A DNA stretch of 63,894 bases from Verrucomicrobiota bacterium (lineage in GTDB: Bacteria; Verrucomicrobiota; Verrucomicrobiia; Chthoniobacterales; JAFAMB01): positions 1 through 63,894 of the forward strand of contig JAFBAP010000019.1 of NCBI GenBank assembly GCA_019247695.1. Direction: 5' to 3'. The position numbers and the translations under genes were made by a program. The first letter of the stretch is position 1, and each line of letters starts with the position of its first letter. The notes beneath the pieces are model-generated. The model was not told the DNA's origin. It made no database searches and saw only the letters and a list, made by a program, of their open reading frames with translations. This document shows, in pieces, positions 2,139 through 35,541 of the stretch.

Positions 2139-5100
2139 GTGGACGCTTATCCCTCGCGTCGCATGCACCCGGACGCCGAACGCCTCACCGATGCTCAGCC
2201 GGCACTGGCGCCCAAGCCTTGCCCCGCCTGCGGCGCGCCTTGCCCGGATGGAGACGATGGCACGGGTTGCCCCGTATGCCTGTTGCAGTGGGCCCTGGAG
2301 CTTGGATCACACGGCAAAGACAGCCCGTCAGACGACGAGCCTTTGTCGCCCACCCAGGGCCGGTTTGACCATTATGAGCTGGTGCAACGGCCGGACGGCG
2401 ACTTTGACGAACTGGGCCGGGGCGCCATGGGGGTTACCTATAAGGCCTTGGACACCGTCCTGGGCCATGCCGTGGCCCTGAAGGTGCTCGACGCCCGTAT
2501 CGCGGCGCGCCCGGAGGCGCGGGAGCGGTTCCTGCGCGAAGCCTGCGCCGCCGCGCGGCTGCGGCATCCGAACGTGGCTTCGGTCTTCTACTTCGGCGTT
2601 CGAAGAAGTGACGGCAGGTGCTTTTACGCAATGGAACTGGTCGAAGGCGAGACGATGGAGGCGCGCCTGCACCGGCAAGGGTCACTGCCCGTACCGGTGG
2701 CCCTGGAGATTGCGGCGCAAGTGGCCCGCGCGCTGGCCGCCGCTGAGGCCCAAGGCTTGGTGCACCGCGACCTCAAACCCTCTAACCTGATGCTGGTAAG
2801 CGGGCCGGAGCCCCTGGTGAAAGTTATCGATTTCGGCTTGGCCAAAGCGGCCGCGAACCTTGGAAGCGAGACCGACTTAACCCAGCACGGGTTCGTCGGC
2901 ACGCCCGCCTTTGCCAGCCCGGAGCAATGCACCGCCGCGAGCGTGGACGCCCGCTCCGACCTGTATGCGCTGGGCGTGACGCTCTGGACGCTTCTGACGG
3001 GGCAGGCGCCGTTTCGAGGCACGCCTGAGGAGGTGATGCGCCAGCACGTACGGGCGCCCTTGCCGCTCGAACGACTCAGCGGAATCCCCCAGCCGGTCGT
3101 GGCGTTGCTGCAAACGCTACTGGAGAAAGACCCGGCACGGCGGTTTCAAAGCGCGACCCAGTTACTCCAAACGATGCTGGCAGTTAGGACCGCGCTTGAG
3201 GCGGGGCGCAGCATGACCGGCCAAGCTTTATACCAGACTGGGGCAGTGAATCTGTCCCGCTTGGTTCTCCCTCTACCGGCACGATCGGGGCCCGAGAAAA
3301 TTTCCGTGGCCCGATTGCCCGTGACCGGGAACGCCCTTTTCGGCCGGGAGGAGGATCTCGCCGCTCTCGAGACAGCCTGGGTCGCGTCGCAGGTGAACGT
3401 TATCGCCATCGTGGCCTGGGCGGGGGTGGGCAAATCGACTTTGGTCAATCACTGGCTGAGACGGATGGCGGCCGAACGATACCGTTCGGCGGACCTGGTG
3501 TTTGGCTGGTCCTTTTACCGGCAGGGTACCCATGGAGAGGCGTCTTCGGCCGACGAATTTTTGGATACGGCCTTGGCTTGGTTTGGCGATCCGGACCCGC
3601 GCCGGGGCACGGCGTGGGACAAAGGCGAACGGCTGGCCGGGCTCATCGCCCCGCGCCGCGCCCTGCTGGTGCTGGACGGCCTTGAGCCGCTCCAAGAGCC
3701 GCCCGGCCCGCACGAAGGGCGCTTGCGCGATCCGGCTCTGCAGGCGCTCTTGCGCGAGTTGGCGGCGTTCAATCAGGGCCTGTGCGTGATCACCACGCGG
3801 CTGCCGGTGGCCGACTTGGCCGATCACGAAGGCAGTTCGATGCGGCGCCAGGACCTGGAGCACCTCTCCGCTGAGGCCGGGGCGCAGTTGTTGCGGGCCC
3901 TTGGGGTTAAAGGGCCCGAAGCCGAGCTGCGGGAAGCTAGTGAGGCGTTCGGGGGCCATTGCCTGGCCCTGACGCTCCTGGGCAGTTACTTGAGCGATGC
4001 TTATGGGGGTGACATCCGTCGCCGCGCCGAAGTGTCCAACCGGCTGGCCCACGACGTGCGCCAGGGCACCCATGCCCGTAAAGTGATGGAATCGTACCAA
4101 GCGTGGCTTGGCGAGGGTCCGGAGCTGGAAGCCCTGCGGCTGCTGGGCCTTTTCGACCGGCCTGCCGATGAAAAGGCGCTCGAGGCGCTGCTGAAACCGC
4201 CCGCCATCCCGGGCCTGACCGAGTCGCTGACCAGCTTGGGCCCAAGCCAGTGGCGCGCGGTGCTGGCGCGGTTAAGGAGGGCCAAACTCCTGGCGGACGA
4301 AGACCCGCACCAGCCGGGCCAGTTGGATGCGCACCCCCTCGTGCGGGAGTATTTCGGCCGCCAGCTTCGGGAACACTGGGCTGCGGCACGGCAGGATGGT
4401 AACCGCCGGCTCTACCATCACTATGAAATGCTGGCACCGGAGCGGCCGGACCGCTTTCAGGACATGGAACCGCTGTTTCCGGCCGTCACCTGCGCCTGCC
4501 AGGCCGGGCTATACCGGGACGCGCTGCATAAAGTCTACATCCCGCGCATCCAGCGCGGGGATGCGTCCTTCGCGGCCAAGATCCTGGGCGTCCGGGGGGC
4601 TTTACTCTCGGCGCTGGCCCATTTTTTTGTCGACGAGCGTTGGGGCTCACCCGTGCAACCGGGCGTCGGGGCCCAACGACTCACCCCGGAGGATCAGCTT
4701 TTTATCCTCATGCAGGCAGGGCTCTACCTAACCGCCACCCGCGGGCACTCCGCCCCGGAGGTGCGCCTTTGTTACGAGCGTGCGGAGGCGTTGTGCCATT
4801 CGCTTCATCAGCCGCTGACGTTGTTTTCCGCGCTGGTAGGTCAGTGGCGCAATTCGCTGCTTACCGCCAAGCTGAGCGCCACCATGCAGGTTGCTCAACG
4901 GGCTTACTCGCTGGCGCAGGCCAGGAACGAGCCGGCGCTCACGCTGGGTGCCTTTCGCATGCTGGCGGTCACGCACTTCTTTGCGGGCGAATTCGCGGCT
5001 GCCCAACGCTGCGCGAGGAGTGGCGTTCAGCTCTGGCGCGCGGGAGGGGTTGAGCCCCGGTTCGAGGAGGTTAACTCACCCGCGGTCGTTTGCCTGAGTT

Positions 5101-5735
5101 TTGACGTCCTCTGCAGGTGGCATTTCAGGGAGGGTACGGCTTGCCAAGTGGCCATGGCCGAAGCCATATCCCTGGCAAGAGCGTTGGGTGACCCGTACGC
5201 GTTAGCCGTGGCCCTCTTTCATGCCGAGTTTGCCGGCCACTTTGAAAATAATTCTGCCGACGTGGAACGTTTGGCCTCAGATTTAATGGAGTTGTCGACC
5301 CGGCAGCATTTTGGGCAGTGGCGGGCCGGAGCAAAAGTTTTCCGTGGCTGGGCGCGGAGCGCGTCCGGCAGTATCGCCGAAGGCATTGCCTGGATCGAGG
5401 AAGGAATCGCAGACTGGCGGGCACTCGGATCGACGCTGGTCGTGCCGTATTGGCTTGCCTTAAAGGCCGAAGCTTTGCACCTTGCGAACCGTTCCGCCGA
5501 GGCGCTTAAGGCCATAAGAGAAGCAGAAACGCTGGCCGAACGCTCTGGTGAGGCCTGGTGGAGTGCCGAACTCTGCAGGCTTCGTGGGGTGTTCCTCGCA
5601 ACGATGGATGCCGACGGGGGCGAAATCGAGGCGGCATTTCGCGAATCCATTCGCGTAGCAGAGCAACAGAGATCGTTTGCCCTGCTGAAACGTGCGGAAG
5701 CGAGCCATACCGAATACCGCGCTAAAAAGGAATGA
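2139..5735 (+). CDS. Ser/Thr protein kinase fused to a P-loop NTPase and TPR-like region
   Basis: 1198 aa. A zinc-ribbon-like CPAC...CPVC pair (28-47) precedes a Hanks-type kinase domain at about 80-345: glycine loop GRGAMG (93-98), Lys115, catalytic HRDLKPSN (209-216) and DFG (231-233), all intact. A second P-loop domain follows with Walker A AGVGKST (428-434) and Walker B LLVLDG (509-514), like STAND/NACHT-type ATPases. The last 500 residues are helical and alanine-rich with TPR character. No membrane segment is evident, so it is probably cytoplasmic. The start is GTG 2139, one base after the sigma-factor stop; ATG 2163 is an alternative. It probably phosphorylates regulatory partners in response to an NTPase-switched signal (inference). 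Confidence 0.85.
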   Translation: MDAYPSRRMHPDAERLTDAQPALAPKPCPACGAPCPDGDDGTGCPVCLLQWALELGSHGKDSPSDDEPLSPTQGRFDHYELVQRPDGDFDELGRGAMGVTYKALDTVLGHAVALKVLDARIAARPEARERFLREACAAARLRHPNVASVFYFGVRRSDGRCFYAMELVEGETMEARLHRQGSLPVPVALEIAAQVARALAAAEAQGLVHRDLKPSNLMLVSGPEPLVKVIDFGLAKAAANLGSETDLTQHGFVGTPAFASPEQCTAASVDARSDLYALGVTLWTLLTGQAPFRGTPEEVMRQHVRAPLPLERLSGIPQPVVALLQTLLEKDPARRFQSATQLLQTMLAVRTALEAGRSMTGQALYQTGAVNLSRLVLPLPARSGPEKISVARLPVTGNALFGREEDLAALETAWVASQVNVIAIVAWAGVGKSTLVNHWLRRMAAERYRSADLVFGWSFYRQGTHGEASSADEFLDTALAWFGDPDPRRGTAWDKGERLAGLIAPRRALLVLDGLEPLQEPPGPHEGRLRDPALQALLRELAAFNQGLCVITTRLPVADLADHEGSSMRRQDLEHLSAEAGAQLLRALGVKGPEAELREASEAFGGHCLALTLLGSYLSDAYGGDIRRRAEVSNRLAHDVRQGTHARKVMESYQAWLGEGPELEALRLLGLFDRPADEKALEALLKPPAIPGLTESLTSLGPSQWRAVLARLRRAKLLADEDPHQPGQLDAHPLVREYFGRQLREHWAAARQDGNRRLYHHYEMLAPERPDRFQDMEPLFPAVTCACQAGLYRDALHKVYIPRIQRGDASFAAKILGVRGALLSALAHFFVDERWGSPVQPGVGAQRLTPEDQLFILMQAGLYLTATRGHSAPEVRLCYERAEALCHSLHQPLTLFSALVGQWRNSLLTAKLSATMQVAQRAYSLAQARNEPALTLGAFRMLAVTHFFAGEFAAAQRCARSGVQLWRAGGVEPRFEEVNSPAVVCLSFDVLCRWHFREGTACQVAMAEAISLARALGDPYALAVALFHAEFAGHFENNSADVERLASDLMELSTRQHFGQWRAGAKVFRGWARSASGSIAEGIAWIEEGIADWRALGSTLVVPYWLALKAEALHLANRSAEALKAIREAETLAERSGEAWWSAELCRLRGVFLATMDADGGEIEAAFRESIRVAEQQRSFALLKRAEASHTEYRAKKE

Positions 5736-5739
5736 GGTG

Positions 5740-6009
5740 AGAACGGTTTGAGGCTCGTTTGCCGAAACACGATGCACGCCGGTCGACTCTGTCGGCACCA
5801 GTACCACGGCCGCCGCAAGCAGGATCGCGAGCTGCCGCTCGATTTTCGACCGCTCGCGAAGCTCGCCGCGCGCCGGCATGCAGCTCGCCCATGGCAATGA
5901 GCGGCAGGAACAACTCGCCCTCATTGGCAATCAGCTCCGGCAGCGGACTTCGCCGGGGGGCCACAATCGTGCTTTTATCGAGCAGGACGTCACCACTCAC
6001 CCGGATCAA
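5740..6009 (-). pseudogene. VapC-like PIN-domain toxin remnant (frameshifted)
   Basis: The frame starting at the ATG ending at 6009 encodes a VapC-like start (SGDVLLDKSTIV) and the hallmark ELFLPLIAMGELHAGARR with its acidic residue, then goes off family after AVEN. The family-like continuation (IERQLAILLAAAVVLVP) is in another frame, so a frameshift lies near 5845-5870. The C-terminal half carrying the remaining acidic residues is absent. The first Asp block is also shortened compared with normal VapC proteins. ATG overlaps the stop of the antitoxin-like gene as ATGA, the usual vapBC arrangement. The ribonuclease is almost certainly dead. Confidence 0.6.
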
Positions 6010-6224
6010 TCCTCCGGCAGTCCTGCAACGCCCGCCCGCTCAAGCTCGTCGGCCCCTTCGGAACTGAGCACCCGGCCGGAATTCTGCAGCAAAGCCCGGC
6101 GCGTTTGCAGGTCCGGCACCGTTAAGGGATGGATGTATGGCGCCCGTACCGCCAACCGGTCGGGCGGCAGCGCCTTGAGTTCCTCAATCGCTTTCTCTAA
6201 AGCCGGCGACGCCCGCCATAACAT
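6006..6224 (-). CDS. VapB-type antitoxin-like small protein
   Basis: 72 aa. The sequence has the pattern of a VapB family often paired with PIN toxins: an N-terminal helix ALEKAIEELKALPPDRL, a middle with the variable Ile-His pair, and a C-terminal SSEGADELERA segment that would wrap the toxin. The stop overlaps the start of the decayed vapC by four bases. Because the toxin is broken, this antitoxin would be an orphan left after decay of the pair, or itself drifting. The assignment rests on the pattern and the neighbour; no DNA-binding fold is visible. Confidence 0.5.
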   Translation of the reverse strand: MLWRASPALEKAIEELKALPPDRLAVRAPYIHPLTVPDLQTRRALLQNSGRVLSSEGADELERAGVAGLPED

Positions 6225-6403
6225 GAATGGTTACGCTACTCGCTGCGCTATGGTAAAAGGCGCCCTCTCCGGTCGATCGATCGCAGGGCATCATCTCGCG
6301 CCGTCTCAGCGCGGCTATGGTGACCCGCCCCACTTTAGTGCCTCCAAATCGGCCTTACCCTGCCTATTGGTGGGTTGCAAAAGCATCCTTCTCCACTCGA
6401 AGC

Positions 6404-7012
6404 TTACGGAAGGACCTCGGTAAGTGCCTCGGATACCGTCGGGCTCTCCGGCATGTGGCGTGGGTCCAGCCAAACGCGTCTTACCCAAAAGCCGGGAATG
6501 ACGCGCGAACGGATCACTGCTTCCTCCTGGCCAAACTCGACCAGCACCTCACTCTGCCGATGGTAAAACCGGTGTGCTAAAGTTCGCGGATCCAAGATCC
6601 AGTACTCCCTCACGCCGTACTCTTCGTATTTGGCGAATTTGCGCCCGACGTCATCGCCGGCGCTCGCGGGCGAAAGGATCTCGGCGACCCAGGTCGGCGC
6701 CACCGGGATGTGGGTCTCCTGGAAACGTGAGACCTGATCGTGCGTATAAAAGGCGATGTCGGGCATGACCACGGTTCGCTGAGCCAACCGGACGGCGATG
6801 ACTTCCCGGTGCACCACGCCCAAGCGCCTGCGTTCGACGTAGGCGGCAAGAAGCCGGTCTAAAAAGTTCGCGAGATTGCCATGGGGCAGGCTGACGGGAG
6901 AATGCATGATGATTTGACCATCAATCAGGTTGGCAAAGACCCCGGGCTCCAGCCACTCGAGGAATTCGTCGGCAGTCCAAAGTTGGTGGGTAATCGACAC
7001 GTGAGTTGGCAT
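6404..7012 (-). CDS. Uma2 family (DUF820) putative endonuclease
   Basis: 202 aa from the ATG at 7010-7012, chosen because GGAG lies six bases upstream; the open frame reaches 7150 without a ribosome site. Family features in order: TADEFLEWLEPG, the glutamate/aspartate-containing LIDGQIIMHSP, the PHGNLANFLDRLL helix, VVMPDIAFY, and WVAEILSPASAGDD...KFAKYEEYGVREYWILDP. These match the PD-(D/E)XK-like Uma2 fold (active residues D, E and K in the MPDI, EILSP and KYEEYG blocks). The physiological role of Uma2 proteins is unknown. It stands alone, between a vapBC remnant and an IS remnant. Confidence 0.85.
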   Translation of the reverse strand: MPTHVSITHQLWTADEFLEWLEPGVFANLIDGQIIMHSPVSLPHGNLANFLDRLLAAYVERRRLGVVHREVIAVRLAQRTVVMPDIAFYTHDQVSRFQETHIPVAPTWVAEILSPASAGDDVGRKFAKYEEYGVREYWILDPRTLAHRFYHRQSEVLVEFGQEEAVIRSRVIPGFWVRRVWLDPRHMPESPTVSEALTEVLP

Positions 7013-7289
7013 ACTGCGCTCCGGATAGTTTATCTTATGGCGGCACGTTGGGTCGAGCAGCGTTTTGCGACGACCGGCGCGACGGTCGAACAAGGAGACG
7101 GCCATCCATTTCGTCGCAGCTGCGGCATCAGCGGTTCGAAGGCAGTCCACGTTTTCGATACGGGGGACGGCGGGGGCTCACGCCTTTAGGTTTAAATCTT
7201 CTTGGACCACTGCAAACAGCCTCGCGGGGTCCTTGTCGGTGGTGGCGCGCATTTCGGCTTTGGCAATGGCTTGGGCGACCGCCGCAAAG

Positions 7290-7943
7290 CTCACTCAAAG
7301 GCGCGGGCGGCGACGAGCGGGGGAACGGGGTTGCAATAAGGACCATCGGCCCGACCTGCGCCAGATGGTGGTGGGCTAAACCGTCGATGTCCAAGGCCGG
7401 CCGATTTGCTGTGAGTTCTGGCCGGGCAACACGGCCGACGTCACCACGCTCAAGCCGGTGGTCGAGCGCTTCCGCTTACGCGAGATCACGGTGGTGGCCG
7501 ATCGAGGCATGGCCAGCCAAGCCACCCTGGAGGCCTTTGAAGGCAGCGTGCAGGCGCGCCAGAACCCCAAGGACCCCGCCCCGCTCAAAGTCAACGAAGT
7601 CTGGATGGAGGCGCGCCGTTACGTCGTGTGCCGCAATGAGGAAGAACGGCGCAAAGACGCCCATGACCGGGAAGCCATCGTGGCCCGCCTGCGCGAGCAA
7701 CTGCGCCAAGGCGATAAAAGCTCGGTCGGCAACAAAGACTATCGCCGCTACCTCAAAGTCGAAGGGGAAGGCCACTTCCAGATCGCTGAAGAGCAGATCA
7801 AAGCCGACGCCTTGCATCCCAAGTGGTATTTGACCATTTTCATGGCTTGGCGGTCGGGCACACGTTCCAAAAACCGGAAGGGAAGATTAACACCCAAGCG
7901 GACCACCGATTCAACGCCCGGCCGTCCATTGTCGCCGACCTAA
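7290..7943 (+). pseudogene. IS1634-like (IS4 superfamily) transposase remnant
   Basis: Fragments of a DDE transposase can be followed in order across frames: AGGDERGNG near 7305, then NKDHRPDLRQMVVG (7335-7376), an in-frame TAA at 7377-7379, then CCEFWPGNTADVTTLKPVV and ITVVADRGM in the same frame as the stop. The DHRPDL and NTAD blocks and the Asp of VADRGM are typical of IS1634 elements. At least one frameshift (about 7333), one nonsense codon and loss of both ends leave roughly 215 of the usual 500-plus codons. No flanking inverted repeats were found. The 161-aa open frame from 7458 is part of this remnant and not a gene. Confidence 0.75.
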
Positions 7944-8108
7944 CCCCCGGCAGGTTGCTCGCGGCACCCTGCCAAGACCGGCCAGACGTTCTTGGCAAAG
8001 CGCTGATGGCAACCCCCAAGGAATCTGTCCGCCAGCTGCCTCCGGTAAACGCGCATCCGTTAAAGCATTGTCGCTTTCCTCCATATTGCCTCGCCTGTGC
8101 CCACCGGT

Positions 8109-10454
8109 TCAGGACTTTGTTAGACCGAGAACATCCGCGACGGTTTTAAGATCGTTTTGATTGTTAACTTTAACCGCCGTCCAGCTCTCTTTGATCGCTC
8201 GTTTGTCAGAAGCCCGCAGATGCCATGACAAGGGTGGACGTACGTTGCCGGGCGGAACCCTGAAGCTGACGATCTCCAACTTGGTCGGCTCGGACTTTGA
8301 CTCCCAGAGTTTTTTGAGCAGAACAAACTCGCGCCAAGCCGTCGCGCTGTGCACCGAGCCTTGCATATTCGCAAACGTTAAGAACGGCGCCTCAAATTGG
8401 AAAACGGCCCCTTGCTGCCCAGGGTTCTGCGACTCGGCAACTTGAGCTGGATCCGAAGGAAAAGCGCTGATGGTGATAATTAGAATCTTTTTCGGACGTG
8501 ATTTGTTGCTGTCCTCCAATTTTCCCAAACCGTCGGCCAGCCACGCCATCAGACCGCCCAGCCCTGAACCTTCGTGATAACCGCCATCTACCAAATGCCA
8601 GCGCTCCGAGTCACGCAGGGGGTGTTTGGCCTGCAAATCCTGACTCGACGTTGGTTTTGCGTCGCCGCGCAACGCATCCGCTTCCAACGGTCGCGCCGCC
8701 GGGGACACATAAGTGAAAGTTGACGAGAGCCTTGCCGCAGTCGAAATCAGAATGTCTACGTCACGGTAGGTGTTTAAGAATTCGAGGGCTCCGACGGGGG
8801 CGCCGTTATGTGGCGGGCGCAGGTCATCGCAAGGGACCGTGGAGAATGCGAGTCGCTGGCCTGTTTCAACAACGGTCGCATTGAAAATGATCGCCGGGCG
8901 GATTCCTTTTGCTGCATCCTCCTGCCACTCTCGTAAGTGGACTTTGTCCAACCGCCCGAACGGTTCATTGCCGCGGCCGTCGCTCTTGCTCCGATGCTTA
9001 TGGCATCCGACATTTCTCATCCAGGCCCGTTCCAGTCCCCTGCCCCGATCATCGAAAATCTTGCGGACCAAGAACGGCGCCACGGCCCGAACCAGGTCGT
9101 TGTACGCGAATCCTTGCGTTGCCCCGCTGAGGCTGGAAGCAGAAGCCGCTTCTCTGACGCGCTCAAGCCATTCTTTACGGATTGGACCTTGATGTTCGGA
9201 TCCGTCCTTGGGGTAAGCGGCTGCGAAAAACATACTGCCCACCGATCCCCCTGAAACTCCGCTTAAAAGTTTCACCGCGCGCGAGAAGCTGCATTTACAT
9301 CCGCTTCCAAACTGTTCCTCCAGGCCCGTCAATACTTCGGCCGTCCACACTGCCGCCTGGATCCCGCCGCCCGCCGCCGCAACCAGGATGACTGGTTCAT
9401 CCCTGTCCGCGGCGCGTCCTAAAACATCGGCCGGGGTTGGAGGCTCGAAGCCATTACGGCTCGAAGGCACGATCTTGTAGTAGTGATCCGTTTTCGGGTG
9501 AAAGGCGGCAAAGAAAAGGCAGAATCCTATCGGCGCCAGCAACGGAACCCGGTACAACTCCAGGAAAAAGCTGAGTCCCGATAATGCCCAAGTCAGCACT
9601 GCCAGCAGCAGCAGTACATAGCCTAGCGGGACCAGGTGAACGCGGCGGCACAGCCGATAAAAAATCGCCGTCACACCCAAGCCGCATGCCGCCCCCAAGT
9701 GATCAAGCTCGACGGGGTACTGCCCCGGACCCCGACTTATGTACCCTCGAAGGGTGTCGGGTGGAAGGTGTCCCCGGAGCCAGTCGCGGGCCGACGCGAG
9801 TCCCATGTATAGCCCCGAGACGTCTTTCGGCACTTCTTTTGCCGGACCGGTCGTCTTGTGCAGGTAGAACACGACCAATTGGAGCCCTCCCCAAATGAGC
9901 AGCCCCGCCGCGAGCCCCCCCATGAGCCCGATGATGATGCCGGCGCGCTTTGGCCGTCGATCCTTTCCTGAGTGGTCCGGAGCATCGAAGCAGCCTGACG
10001 CCCAGCATGCCACGACCGCGTTGATTAAGATGCCGGCCCAGACCGCCGCGCCGATCAGGCGCTGCCATAGAACAGGCGTTACAACTTCCTCGCTTGCTTC
10101 GACGCGGAGGCCGCCTAATTGCATATCAAGCGTCGCGGTCATGTAAATGCTCATCCCACACAGCACAATCAAAAATCCCACGGCGATCGCTGCCCAACAG
10201 CTGGTCAGGTCATAAGCTCCGATCAGCAAGGATTTAAGGTTATTAGTCGCCAGAAATGGCAGGAGTGCCGCAAAGATCGCTAACGCCGTGAGCGGCACGC
10301 GCGCGAAATAAAAGACTGGCGTTATTTGATACAGCATGAGGCTGACCACGACGCAGAACGCGAGAGCACCGGTTAGCCAGACGAATCTGCCGGCGCCGGC
10401 GGTGGGTTGGGGAACGTCGGCCGGCACTGCTTGGACATTCACAGGGATACTCAT
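8109..10454 (-). CDS. Membrane-anchored patatin-like phospholipase
   Basis: 781 aa from the ATG at 10452-10454, which overlaps the upstream stop as ATGA; the longer frame to 10499 is less likely. The N-terminal 320 residues hold about seven hydrophobic segments. The C-terminal half is patatin-like: oxyanion-hole glycines in AAAGGGIQA (about 359-367), the nucleophile elbow GVSGG with Ser near 401, and the catalytic-Asp motif VDGGYHEGSG near the C-terminal third. It is therefore probably a serine-aspartate acyl hydrolase acting on membrane lipids from the cytoplasmic face. It is coupled to a lectin-like small protein (10451-10927). Substrate and trigger are unknown. Confidence 0.8.
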   Translation of the reverse strand: MSIPVNVQAVPADVPQPTAGAGRFVWLTGALAFCVVVSLMLYQITPVFYFARVPLTALAIFAALLPFLATNNLKSLLIGAYDLTSCWAAIAVGFLIVLCGMSIYMTATLDMQLGGLRVEASEEVVTPVLWQRLIGAAVWAGILINAVVACWASGCFDAPDHSGKDRRPKRAGIIIGLMGGLAAGLLIWGGLQLVVFYLHKTTGPAKEVPKDVSGLYMGLASARDWLRGHLPPDTLRGYISRGPGQYPVELDHLGAACGLGVTAIFYRLCRRVHLVPLGYVLLLLAVLTWALSGLSFFLELYRVPLLAPIGFCLFFAAFHPKTDHYYKIVPSSRNGFEPPTPADVLGRAADRDEPVILVAAAGGGIQAAVWTAEVLTGLEEQFGSGCKCSFSRAVKLLSGVSGGSVGSMFFAAAYPKDGSEHQGPIRKEWLERVREAASASSLSGATQGFAYNDLVRAVAPFLVRKIFDDRGRGLERAWMRNVGCHKHRSKSDGRGNEPFGRLDKVHLREWQEDAAKGIRPAIIFNATVVETGQRLAFSTVPCDDLRPPHNGAPVGALEFLNTYRDVDILISTAARLSSTFTYVSPAARPLEADALRGDAKPTSSQDLQAKHPLRDSERWHLVDGGYHEGSGLGGLMAWLADGLGKLEDSNKSRPKKILIITISAFPSDPAQVAESQNPGQQGAVFQFEAPFLTFANMQGSVHSATAWREFVLLKKLWESKSEPTKLEIVSFRVPPGNVRPPLSWHLRASDKRAIKESWTAVKVNNQNDLKTVADVLGLTKS

Positions 10455-29643: not shown

Positions 29644-29731
29644 TCCACGCATTTTGCGGCGGCATTTTTTTCGATCCGTGATGGAGTTTATTGCGAAGTA
29701 ACTGGAAGAGGACCCGCGTGGGCGGGATACA

Positions 29732-32700
29732 GTGATGAGAATCTTCAGTTTTCTCGGTAACTGGCCGTTGCTCCGGCAAATCCGTCATTGGGCGGATGGC
29801 ACCGGCCTGGAATCCATGTCCGAAAGGACGCGTGCCCTTAAGCCTCGAGTGCAAGAGGCCGAAGTCGCCCGTTCGGTTTGTCCCTACTGCGGTGTCGGTT
29901 GCGGTCAGTTGATCTATCACCGGGAAGGCAAACTCCTCGCCATCGAAGGGGACCCGGCCAGCCCGGTCAGCCAGGGTAACCTCTGCCCTAAAGGGTCGGC
30001 ATCCTACCAGCTGCTTACTCACCCGAACCGGCTGACGAAGACGCTATACCGGGCGCCGCACGCCAAAGCGTGGGTCGAGATCGAGCCGGAGAAGGCGATG
30101 GACATGATTGCCGATCGGGTCTGGGAAACGCGCAAACGCGCGTGGAAGACGGAAGAGAACGGACATCCGGTTAATCATACGACGCGCATTGCGCACCTGG
30201 GGGGCGCCACGCTGGATAACGAAGAGAATTACCTCATCAAAAAGCTCTTTACCGCCGGCCTGGGCATGGTCTGCCTTTCCAACCAGGCGCGAATATGACA
30301 CTCTAGCACCGTGCCCGGTCTGGGCACTTCATTCGGGCGGGGAGGCGCCACGATGGCTCTGCAGGATCTGGCCAACGCCGACTGCATCCTTATTGAAGGC
30401 TCCTCGATGGCGGAAAACCACCCGGTCGGGTTCCGCTGGGTGATGGCCGCCAAGGAACGGGGGGCCACGTTGATTCACGTTGACCCCCGGTTTTCACGGA
30501 CCAGTGCCGTGGCCGACCTGTGGGTGCCGATTCGGGCCGGCACCGACATTGCATTTTTGGGCGGCCTGGTTCACTACGTGATCGAGCGCGAGAAGTATTT
30601 CAAGGACTACGTGCTGCACTACACCAACGCCAGCGCCCTCATCAGAGAAGATTTCCGCATGCCCGACGACGGCCTGGACGGTTTCTTTTCGGGATGGAAC
30701 CCGGACAAGCGCCTGTACGATTCCCAGACCTGGCAATACGACAGTGACGACGTCAGCCACCCGAACCGGGACCTCACCCTGCAACATCCACGCTGCGTTT
30801 TCCAGCTGCTGAAGCGCCACTACGCCCGGTACACCCCTGAGATGGTAGAAAAGGTTTGCGGCATCCCGCAGGCCCTCTTTTTCCAAGTGGCCGAAAAGTT
30901 CACCGGGGCCAGCGGCCCGGACAAAACGGCGGCCATGGCGTACGCGGTGGGTTGGACGCAACATTCCAAGGCCGTGCAGATGATCCGGATCGCCAGCATC
31001 CTGCAGTTGCTGTTAGGCAACATCGGCCGGCCCGGCGGCGGCATTATGGCGTTGCGCGGCCATGCGTCCATTCAGGGTTCAACCGACATTCCTACCCTGT
31101 ACGATATACTTCCCGGTTATCTCCCAATGCCGCGGGCCGGGATGGGCGAGGACACGCTGCACGATTACATCAGCAAGCACACGAACCCGACCGGGCTCTG
31201 GACGGAGTTCGGCAAGTACTTCGTGAGCCTGCTCAAGGCTTATTACGGGAAGAATGCAACGGCGGAGAACGAGTTCGGGTTCCGTTGGCTGCCGAAACTC
31301 AGCAGGAACCATTCTTTCTTCAAGATCGTGTATCAGATGGCGGATGCCCAGGTCGAAGGTTATTTCTGCATGGGCCAGAACCCGGCGGTAGCTGCGCAGC
31401 ATGCCGGCTTCCAACGGAAAGCGCTCGCGAAGCTGAAGTGGCTGGTGGTGCGCGACATGGTGGAACTCGAGCCCGCGACCTTCTGGTTGAACTCGCCGGA
31501 AATCGAGCGCGGCGAGTTAAAGACGGAGGACATCGCCACCGAGGTTTTTCTGATGCCGGCGGCAGGCCACGCCGAGAAGGAAGGTGCCTTTACCAACACC
31601 CAACGCATGGTGCAATGGCGTGAGAAGGCGGTCGAGCCGCCCGGGGATTGCAAAAGCGAGAGCTGGTTCATGCACCAACTGGCCAAACGGCTGAAGCAAA
31701 AGGCGGCGGCTTCCAACGACCCCATGGACGAGCCGCTGCGGGCGCTGGACTGGTGGTACCCGGAAGAGGAAAACGGCGAGCCGAACATGGAAGCGGTCCT
31801 GGCCGAAATCAACGGCTGGCACACCGCGCCGCACGCTGAGGCCAAGGGCACTCTCTGGGTGAAGGACGTCGAGGGCCGGCTTCACCACGGGCCGCAAATC
31901 GACCATTACCAGGACCTCAAGGACGACGGGTCAACCGCGTCCGGCTGCTGGATCTATGCCGGCATCCTCGGGTCTGACGGCATCAACAAAGCCCATCGCC
32001 GGGACCCGCATGGTCCTTACGGGCACGGTTGGGGATTCGCCTGGCCGAGCGATCGCCGCATCCTTTATAACCGGGCGAGCGCCCGGCCGGACGGCGCCCC
32101 CTGGAGCGAGCGGAAAAAGCTGGTGTGGTGGGACCCGGTCGCGAAGCGATGGGTCGGCAACGACGTCCCGGATTTTCCGCCGGACAAACCGCCCGATTAT
32201 CAGCCGCCACCCGGCGCCACGGGGCTTAATGCCCACCCCGGCGACCGGCCTTTTATTGTGCAGGAGGACGGCCTGGGCTGGCTCTACGTCCCTAGAGGTT
32301 TGGAAGACGGGCCGATGCCGACCCACTATGAACCGATCGAATCCCCGGTCTCAAACGCGCTATACCGCCGCAATACCGATCCGGTGATCGACTGGTTTAC
32401 CCGGCAGGAGAACCGGTTCGCGCCGCCGGGCGACCCGCGGTTTCCGTACGTGCTGACCACTTACCGGCTCACGGAACACCACACGGCCGGGGGTATGAGC
32501 CGGTGGTTGAGCCACCTGGCTGAGCTTCAGCCCGAATTCTTCATCGAGATGTCGCCCGAGCTGGCGGAAGAATTGAAGGTGAAAAATGGCGATTACGTGA
32601 CCATCGCCACCATGCGCGCCGCGGTTGAGGCCCGCGCCCTGGTTAGCCGGCGACTTCGCCCGGTGCGGGTCGGAGCAGGCCAACTCGTTCATCAGGTCGC

Positions 32701-32983
32701 GGTGCCGTTCCACTGGGGCAGGGGCGGCCCGATCAAGGGCGACAGCGCCTGCGACCTCCTGGCGATTTCGGGGGAACCAAACGTCACCATCATGGAAACC
32801 AAAGCGGTCAGCTGCACCATCGTGCCCGGACGGGTACCGCGCGGGCCGCAGTACCTGGAATTCATGAAGCGGATAGCGCCCCCCACCCCGCAACCTAACC
32901 TGCACCCGGAACAACCGCCGCCCGGCGCACCAGAAGGCGGCAAGTTTTCCTCGAGTTACGGCCAATACGGAAAAACAGAATGA
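29732..32983 (+). CDS. fdhA: Formate dehydrogenase catalytic (alpha) subunit, selenocysteine-containing
   Basis: 1083 aa if the TGA at 30296-30298 is read as selenocysteine (residue 189). The residues around it, NQARI-U-HSSTVPGLGTSFGRGG, are the conserved active-site context of Sec-containing formate dehydrogenases, and the frame continues to 32983. An N-terminal 4Fe-4S site uses Cys50, 53, 57 and 85 (CPYCGVGC...NLCPKG). The rest is a molybdopterin-guanine-dinucleotide oxidoreductase. It oxidises formate to CO2 and passes electrons to the beta subunit. No twin-arginine signal is visible, unlike E. coli FdnG, which suggests a cytoplasm-facing enzyme (inference). GTG 29732 or ATG 29735 starts it. 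Its end overlaps the beta-subunit start by four bases. Confidence 0.93.
30299..30330 (+). promoter_or_regulatory. SECIS-like hairpin for selenocysteine insertion
   Basis: Immediately after the TGA a hairpin forms at 30311-30327: stem GTGCCC/GGGCAC around the loop GGTCT. The GGUCU apical loop is the SelB-binding hallmark of the E. coli fdhF and fdnG elements, and the spacing of 12 bases from the TGA to the stem fits. The element lies within the coding sequence, as in other bacterial SECIS elements. Confidence 0.85.
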
Positions 32984-33840
32984 TTGGTGAAGGTCTACTT
33001 TCGACTAACCAAAAACGGCACCACTACGTTAAAGACGGCCGGACCGTCGGGTTTTACACCGACCCGACGGTCTGTATCGGCTGCAAGGCGTGCGAGGTGG
33101 CCTGCAAGGAATGGAACCAGGTGCCGGACGACGGTTTTGTTTGGACCGGGAATTCGTATGACAACACGGGTGCCCTGGGTGCATCGACCTGGCGTCACGT
33201 GCTTTTCCTAGAACAACCGTTCAACCGCGGGCCGCAAATCGCCGGCCCGATGACGGGCGCTCAGGAAGCGCCGTTCCGGTGGCTGTTTCTCTCGAACGTC
33301 TGCAAACACTGCGAGGTGGCCGGGTGCCTGGAGAGTTGCCCTACAGGCGCGATCATCCGGACCGAAACCGGAGGGGTCTTCGTGCAGGATGATATTTGCA
33401 ACGGGTGCGGCTACTGCGTGGTGTCGTGCCCGTTCGGCGTCATCGAGCGCCGCGCAAAACCGCAGCCGAAAGCCGGCGGAGCGTTCAAGTGCACCTTCTG
33501 CTACGACCGGCAGCGCGACGGGTTGGTGCCGGCCTGCGCGAAAACCTGTCCGACCGAAAGCATCCTGTTCGGCCCGCTGGATGAATTGCGTGCCCATGCC
33601 GCCCGGCGCGTGGCCGATCTCCACGCGCTCGGCTACACCGACGCGCACAATTACGACCCCCAGGAAACCAGCGTAAAGGGTATCCATGCGTCCTTTCTTC
33701 TGCTGGGGGACCCGACGGCCTATGGCCTGCCGCCCAAGCCGGACGTTCCCATCATCCATTTGAAGGCAAGCTGGGGCGCGGCGCTGATCACTGCCATCGG
33801 GGCATTGGTGGCCACGATCCTGACCTTCAGCCTATTCTAA
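32980..33840 (+). CDS. fdhB: Formate dehydrogenase iron-sulfur (beta) subunit
   Basis: 286 aa. Four ferredoxin-type cysteine clusters are visible: CIGCKACEVACKE (32-44), CKHCEVAGCLESCP, CNGCGYCVVSCP and CTFCYDRQ...CAKTCP, enough for four 4Fe-4S centres as in FdnH. A single C-terminal membrane helix (about 266-286) would anchor it to the inner membrane. It carries electrons from the catalytic subunit to the membrane subunit. ATG overlaps the upstream stop, giving tight translational coupling. Confidence 0.92.
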   Translation: MIGEGLLSTNQKRHHYVKDGRTVGFYTDPTVCIGCKACEVACKEWNQVPDDGFVWTGNSYDNTGALGASTWRHVLFLEQPFNRGPQIAGPMTGAQEAPFRWLFLSNVCKHCEVAGCLESCPTGAIIRTETGGVFVQDDICNGCGYCVVSCPFGVIERRAKPQPKAGGAFKCTFCYDRQRDGLVPACAKTCPTESILFGPLDELRAHAARRVADLHALGYTDAHNYDPQETSVKGIHASFLLLGDPTAYGLPPKPDVPIIHLKASWGAALITAIGALVATILTFSLF

Positions 33841-33850
33841 CTCGAGCGCA

Positions 33851-34945
33851 ATGCCCTCCAACGATACGCCCTCCAACGATAAGCATCCGGATTTCGAGGC
33901 CCGATTGGATCAGCTCCGGGAGGAAGCCCGCGCCACCGGCCGGGTCAGCGGACGCGGCGTTGACGTTGCCGGGGGACCTATCCCGGCGGGTTCGTTGCAA
34001 CCGGCCAAGCCGGGTTACTACGGCCGGCCGGTGGTCCGGCCGCCGGTCTGGGAATGGCAGATCGCACTTTATTTTTTTGTTGGCGGGCTTGCGGGCATGG
34101 CCGGGGTGATCGGTGCGGTCGCCTGCTTTCGCGGGCATGCGGACGTCACGCGCGCGGCGATGTGGCTGGCGGCCGCAGGCGTCATGATTTCTACCGTGTT
34201 GCTGATTTGGGACCTCGGCCGTCCCTGGTTGTTTCTGCACATGCTGCGAGTGTTCAAGCCGAAGTCCCCCATGTCCGTCGGCTCCTGGATCGTGAGTTTC
34301 TTCGGCGCCTGCGCGGTTCCGAGCGCGATCGCCTTCGAGTTAGACCAGCGGCACCTGATCCCTGCCGGCAGCGGAGCCGCTTTAGCCTTGCATGTGCTCG
34401 CGGTAGTGCTTGCCGTCGGGACCGGCTTCTGGGGGATGTTTCTCGCCACCTATACGGGCGTCTTGATCGGGGTGAGCACCATCCCGGCTTGGTTTTCCCA
34501 CGTGCGGCTATTACCGGCCCACTTCGGGACGGTCGGGCTGGGATCGGCGGTTGCCGTCCTGGAGTTGCTCGGGTTCCGATTGCCCGCCCTGAATGCGCTC
34601 GGCTTCCTTGCGGCAATCGTCGAGACCTGCGTCTGGCTCTTGCTGGAACTGAGGCACCACGGGGCCGTGGACCGTGCCGTGCACGAGGGGCGCTCGGGTT
34701 TGCTCCTGCGATCGGCCGGGCTCCTGACCGGACCGGCCGCGTTGATCCTGCGGGCCGCCGGTAGCATCGGAGCCGGGTTTTGGCCGGCTACCCTCCTGGC
34801 GGATGCCGCCTTTCTAGTCGGCGGCGTTACCCATCGCTTCGGCTGGATCGATGCCGGTCACGCTTCCGGACGCGATCCCGAAGCTGTCTTCGCGTCGATG
34901 CAGCCGGAACCGCCCACCGCACCTTCCCCACCGGCCCGTCAGTGA
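33851..34945 (+). CDS. nrfD: NrfD/PsrC-like membrane subunit
   Basis: 364 aa. After a soluble N-terminus of about 75 residues there are eight or so hydrophobic helices, beginning WQIALYFFVGGLAGMAGVIG, then LIWDLGRPW, MSVGSWIVSFFGA and GFWGMFLATYTGVLIG, the pattern of NrfD/PsrC quinone-reactive proteins. It sits ten bases after the beta subunit and most likely delivers electrons to the quinone pool, in place of the cytochrome b gamma subunit of E. coli FDH-N. Confidence 0.88.
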   Translation: MPSNDTPSNDKHPDFEARLDQLREEARATGRVSGRGVDVAGGPIPAGSLQPAKPGYYGRPVVRPPVWEWQIALYFFVGGLAGMAGVIGAVACFRGHADVTRAAMWLAAAGVMISTVLLIWDLGRPWLFLHMLRVFKPKSPMSVGSWIVSFFGACAVPSAIAFELDQRHLIPAGSGAALALHVLAVVLAVGTGFWGMFLATYTGVLIGVSTIPAWFSHVRLLPAHFGTVGLGSAVAVLELLGFRLPALNALGFLAAIVETCVWLLLELRHHGAVDRAVHEGRSGLLLRSAGLLTGPAALILRAAGSIGAGFWPATLLADAAFLVGGVTHRFGWIDAGHASGRDPEAVFASMQPEPPTAPSPPARQ

Positions 34946-35026: not shown

Positions 35027-35051
35027 GTCAGGCAGGGACTGAAGTTTCTGG

Positions 35052-35450
35052 CTGATACCATTTCGAAGGCCATGGAGGTAAAATCTTGTCTTCCTTCCCC
35101 GGTACCCTGTCGGCGTTAAACCTTTTAAACCGTATAAACGGCCTAGACCCAACGGGCCGGGAGACCTCGGCCCAGGGTTTAACGGGCGAAGGCGTTCCCC
35201 TCCGGCCCAACCCTGAATGGGCAGTAGCAGGCATTGCCGGCGAATTCTGCCGCCCCATCAGGGCTCGATCGTGATTTTACGGTTACCGAGGGTAAACCCT
35301 GGGCTAAGTTCCTTTAGCCCTTCAGGCCATCAAACCGTCTCCCGGCCCGTTGGGCCTAAGGCCGATCCAACCGGGTACGGAGCAGCCTCCGGTGCCGACG
35401 CTCCGTTAGCCGACATTCTACTGAAATAACTGTCTGCTGAACGGTATCAG
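35052..35450. repeat. Nested inverted-repeat element of about 400 bp (MITE-like)
   Basis: Three inverted-repeat pairs are nested. The outer 8-mer is CTGATACC (35052-35059) with GGTATCAG (35443-35450). The middle pair is a 26/27-base near-match, 35140-35165 with 35337-35363, sharing CCCAACGGGCCGGGAGAC exactly. The inner 12-mer is GCCCAGGGTTTA (35170-35181) with TAAACCCTGGGC (35293-35304). No protein is encoded. It could be a non-autonomous mobile element or a large RNA structure. Confidence 0.65.
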
Positions 35451-35541
35451 AGGTATGTGAAAATCGGCGGCAACCGGGTGCATTTTCCCGGGCATCTCAC
35501 AACGCTCTCGGATCTTCAAAGGTCAGGTAGCACGCTGTTGG

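Follow-up and report, generated by a model that had tools for sequence, protein, structure and literature searches.

The window, by which we mean the whole 63,894-nucleotide stretch of Verrucomicrobiota DNA that was analysed, contains a three-gene formate dehydrogenase (FDH) operon on the forward strand, consisting of fdhA, a gene for an Fe-S beta subunit, and a gene for an NrfD-type anchor. FdhA (29735–32983) is an FdnG-type FDH alpha subunit that passed the curated FDH-N alpha model TIGR01553 (982.6 bits, cut-off 814.2) as well as NF041513 (1551.4 bits, cut-off 1400), and a domain search found both Fe4S4 and molybdopterin domains. The ferredoxin-type beta subunit (32980–33840) has a Fer4_11 match and, by hydropathy, a single C-terminal membrane helix; its match to TIGR01582, at 162 bits, lies under the equivalog cut-off of 335. 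The third product (33851–34945), a membrane anchor or quinone-interacting subunit, matches PF03916 at 49.6 bits and has at least five hydrophobic helices.

Within fdhA lies a TGA (30296–30298), predicted to be read as selenocysteine (Sec), that is in frame with the open sequence on both its 5′ side (29732–30298) and its 3′ side (30311–32983). Translation through this codon yields a single protein of 1082–1083 aa, terminated by the TGA at 32981–32983. The start is probably the ATG at 29735, which gives 1082 aa and places the predicted Sec at residue 188 (189 if counted from the GTG at 29732). The initial annotation had anticipated that a gene caller would split fdhA, and an open reading frame listing under translation table 11 does cut it into exactly these two pieces; annotation has to treat it as a single selenoprotein, not as two fragments. 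Alignment with E. coli FdnG (FDH-N alpha, 1KQF chain A) covers 989 residues (E=3.6e-222), and the TGA falls on the Sec (X/U) of that protein, with NQARI-U-H in the window and NQARV-U-H in 1KQF, which bears out the earlier claim of a Sec codon in an FDH active site. Full-length homology, the Sec column, and the Fe4S4 and molybdopterin domains are common to FdhA, E. coli FdnG, and other solved Sec-FDHs (e.g., 6SDR).

The TGA is followed by a bacterial SECIS hairpin (30311–30327, forward strand) made up of GTGCCC (30311–30316), a GGTCT loop (30317–30321), and GGGCAC (30322–30327). It starts 12 nt past the TGA, which places the loop at +18. Folded alone, it has an energy of −11.5 kcal/mol, with a perfect stem of 6 bp closing a 5-nt loop. 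When fragments of 45–55 nt were folded, G-rich sequence further downstream offered competing pairings, and the energy did not beat that of shuffled DNA (z −0.4 to 0). Energy by itself is therefore insufficient, and the convincing evidence for the hairpin is its placement and its conservation. GGTCT is found at +18 for 3 of the 1693 TGAs in the window (both strands), and only TGA 30296 has a perfect 6-bp stem as well; no TGA with both turned up when one strand was resampled 40 times with a first-order Markov model. Without the stem and the frame the loop motif means nothing, since TGA-N18-GGTCTG had 30 matches across the 5.2-Mb genome versus 26 for a reversed control pattern, and its use as a genome-wide finder of further selenoproteins was dropped as uninformative. 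A scan of the window against Rfam gave no match. The bSECIS model specifies an apical loop of 3–9 nt with a G within its first two positions, an upper stem of 4–16 bp, a UGA-to-loop distance of 16–37 nt, and an energy of −7.5 kcal/mol or lower (PMC13188914); the hairpin falls within all of these limits, with a 5-nt GGUCU loop, a 6-bp stem, 18-nt spacing, and −11.5 kcal/mol. The initial annotation had matched the loop to the SelB-binding loop of E. coli, and this holds. The loop letters and the 18-nt UGA-loop distance are identical to those of E. coli fdhF (MG1655), whereas the uninterrupted 6-bp stem of the window has no counterpart to the bulged U of fdhF or to its lower stem. The loop of E. 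coli fdnG is AGTCT, as opposed to the GGTCT shared by the window and fdhF.

Both the codon and the hairpin are conserved. Among 19 wider homologs spanning the site, drawn, going by their record titles, from Verrucomicrobiota, Acidobacteriota, Chloroflexota, Desulfobacterota, and Carbobacillus, 18 have TGA and the remaining one has TGT, encoding Cys. Within the order, all 38 homolog matches spanning the site have TGA, with the position confirmed for the subset examined as loci. Outside Desulfobacterota, every Sec relative but one retains the GGTCT loop. The exception is locus L072 (genome G046), a natural SECIS-loop variant in which the loop is AGTTT and the peptide reads VPSLG while the stem is kept, so GGTCT is not absolutely conserved. 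The stem GTGCCC/GGGCAC becomes GTCCCC/GGGGAC in Chloroflexota, and near variants are found in Acidobacteriaceae; the swap of C-G and G-C affects third codon positions (GTG to GTC, GGC to GGG) and leaves the peptide VPGLG unchanged. Pairing was intact in 96 of 96 cells (100%) over 16 sequences, compared with an average of 92% with shuffled partners and 24–56% when the partner was slid by 1–3 columns; these figures are per sequence, and few independent events underlie the covariation, perhaps just one swap, as a single pair is altered on both sides and the variants divide by lineage. Between FdhA and its homolog in a sister species, whose contig covers residues 1–276, protein identity is 97.5% and identity at fourfold sites 77%, a difference that indicates purifying selection on fdhA both before and after the TGA.

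These observations bear on the possibility of a decaying FDH gene in which the TGA is a genuine nonsense mutation or results from misassembly, the hairpin being a side effect of conservation of the peptide VPGLGT. That peptide does limit codon choice, and an FDH remnant elsewhere in the same genome (described below) shows that decay does occur. However, the codon coincides exactly with the Sec column and is common to several phyla, the remainder of the 1082-codon frame is open, the sister-species comparison points to purifying selection rather than decay, and the stem shows covariation at third positions even though the changes are synonymous. We regard this explanation as very improbable.

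The genome also encodes the machinery required by the Sec reading. A sel cluster, in the order selC-selD-selA-selB, lies on the minus strand of contig C83 (4518–9135) of the assembly, which comprises 5.19 Mb in 191 contigs and is 96.7% complete. The tRNA-Sec gene, selC (9039–9135), scored 60.7 bits against a gathering threshold of 47, and ARAGORN and Rfam agree on it, with anticodon TCA. SelD (8027–8959) scored 368 bits (cut-off 125), SelA (6488–7849) 481 bits (cut-off 268), and SelB (4518–6416) 296.6 bits with the full-length model TIGR00475 (cut-off 242). SelB has GTPase, beta-barrel, and terminal winged helix domains, the last of these matching PF09107 at 59.9 bits (residues 590–636). The second wing model, PF09106, gave no match to SelB although the full-length model was clearly positive, and used alone it would mislead. 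The initial annotation had predicted SelA, SelB, SelC, and SelD and had named an absence of Sec machinery as grounds for abandoning its claim; with all four parts of the bacterial system found in one cluster of this assembly, each above its cut-off, the claim is upheld. Reading of the TGA as a standard amino acid, by a suppressor tRNA or under a non-standard genetic code, would equally leave the frame open, as would any code with TGA as sense, but is less probable still, given the dedicated tRNA-Sec, SelA, SelB, and SelD and the use of TGA as an ordinary stop here, as at the end of fdhA itself.

Across 197 genomes of the order, a SelA match was found in 36 of the 41 with an fdhA homolog, and 14 have SelA but not this FDH. 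One relative that is 99% complete and has no SelA match retains only a TGA-containing fragment of this FDH (G002:C2:643312–644202, residues 7–303), which may be left over from a Sec trait since lost. SelD is commonly a selenoprotein and is predicted to be one here as well, since the gene in the sel cluster (L021:4423–5481, minus strand, on G000:C83) contains a TGA in frame, in the context SCAG-U-ASKL. This codon is common to relatives, with Cys in its place in relative L050; the downstream DNA is strongly conserved in relatives, and folding at the selD TGA gave no clear hairpin.

As judged from the sequence, TGA 30296 is almost certainly a Sec codon in a membrane-associated, Mo- or W-dependent FDH. 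We infer the course of Sec insertion, from SelB binding onward, together with the metal, the electron route, and the direction of catalysis. SelB with Sec-tRNA-Sec would bind the GGUCU-loop hairpin, Sec would be delivered once the ribosome reaches the UGA, and translation would go on to 32983. Sec would then ligate the active-site metal, as in E. coli FDH-N, and electrons leaving FdhA would reach the quinone pool by way of the Fe-S beta subunit and the NrfD-type anchor. It is well supported that FdhA is an ordinary bacterial selenoprotein with a known mechanism and a textbook-like SECIS element. Since FDH already ranks as the most widespread selenoprotein of bacteria (PMC13188914), predicted decoding of UGA as Sec by a soil Verrucomicrobiota lineage, for formate oxidation (or CO2 reduction), adds a lineage and not a principle. 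A literature search of limited coverage found no report of a Verrucomicrobiota Sec-FDH; absence in such a search is weak evidence.

The operon differs from that of E. coli FDH-N in its NrfD-type anchor. In E. coli FDH-N the anchor is FdnI, a cytochrome b. A twin-arginine signal before the CxYCxxGCG motif is absent from FdhA of Verrucomicrobiota and Acidobacteriaceae and present in the Chloroflexota and Desulfobacterota relatives (29735–29880 of the window compared with loci L022, L038, L039, L056, L058, and L059). Lack of this signal suggests a cytoplasm-facing enzyme with an NrfD anchor.

The remnant mentioned above is an FDH operon scar on contig C83 (L021:5796–6201, plus strand; G000:C83:9295–9700), which adjoins selC and is transcribed away from it. 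Its 5′ part corresponds to the first ~135 bp of the FDH locus, from ~60 bp upstream of the start, and is joined directly to the last ~260 coding bases of fdhA and to a beta gene truncated after ~20 codons; the 2.9-kb middle is deleted. In the sister genome G047 (which matches MAG CP_BM_RX_22, L039) an FDH gene lies at the same place beside selC and is open to the contig end; its homology to the window copy begins at 29672, which is also the upstream boundary of the scar. Taken with the scar, this gene and the shared boundary suggest that the window operon probably arose by relocation or duplication from the sel neighbourhood, the original having then been lost. For the genus, we favour with some reserve a history in which copying or relocation took the FDH operon away from the sel cluster and the old copy next to selC decayed to a scar. 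The Sec trait would have been kept through the relocated client gene, encoding a Sec-FDH that lacks a Tat signal, has an NrfD anchor, probably faces the cytoplasm, and is typical of soil Verrucomicrobiota and Acidobacteriota. The 97% protein identity had also raised the possibility that FDH was gained horizontally from a sister species, which was set aside as unneeded, with fourfold-site identity for fdhA (77%) close to that for poxB (72%) and selD (71%); the values for selB and selA were 66% and 59%. Between the nrfD-like gene and poxB, the window carries a dispersed repeat (35043–35456) that is nearly absent from the sister genome G047; it is partly self-complementary, and about 100 partial copies, ~70–96% identical and in both orientations, are found across the genome.
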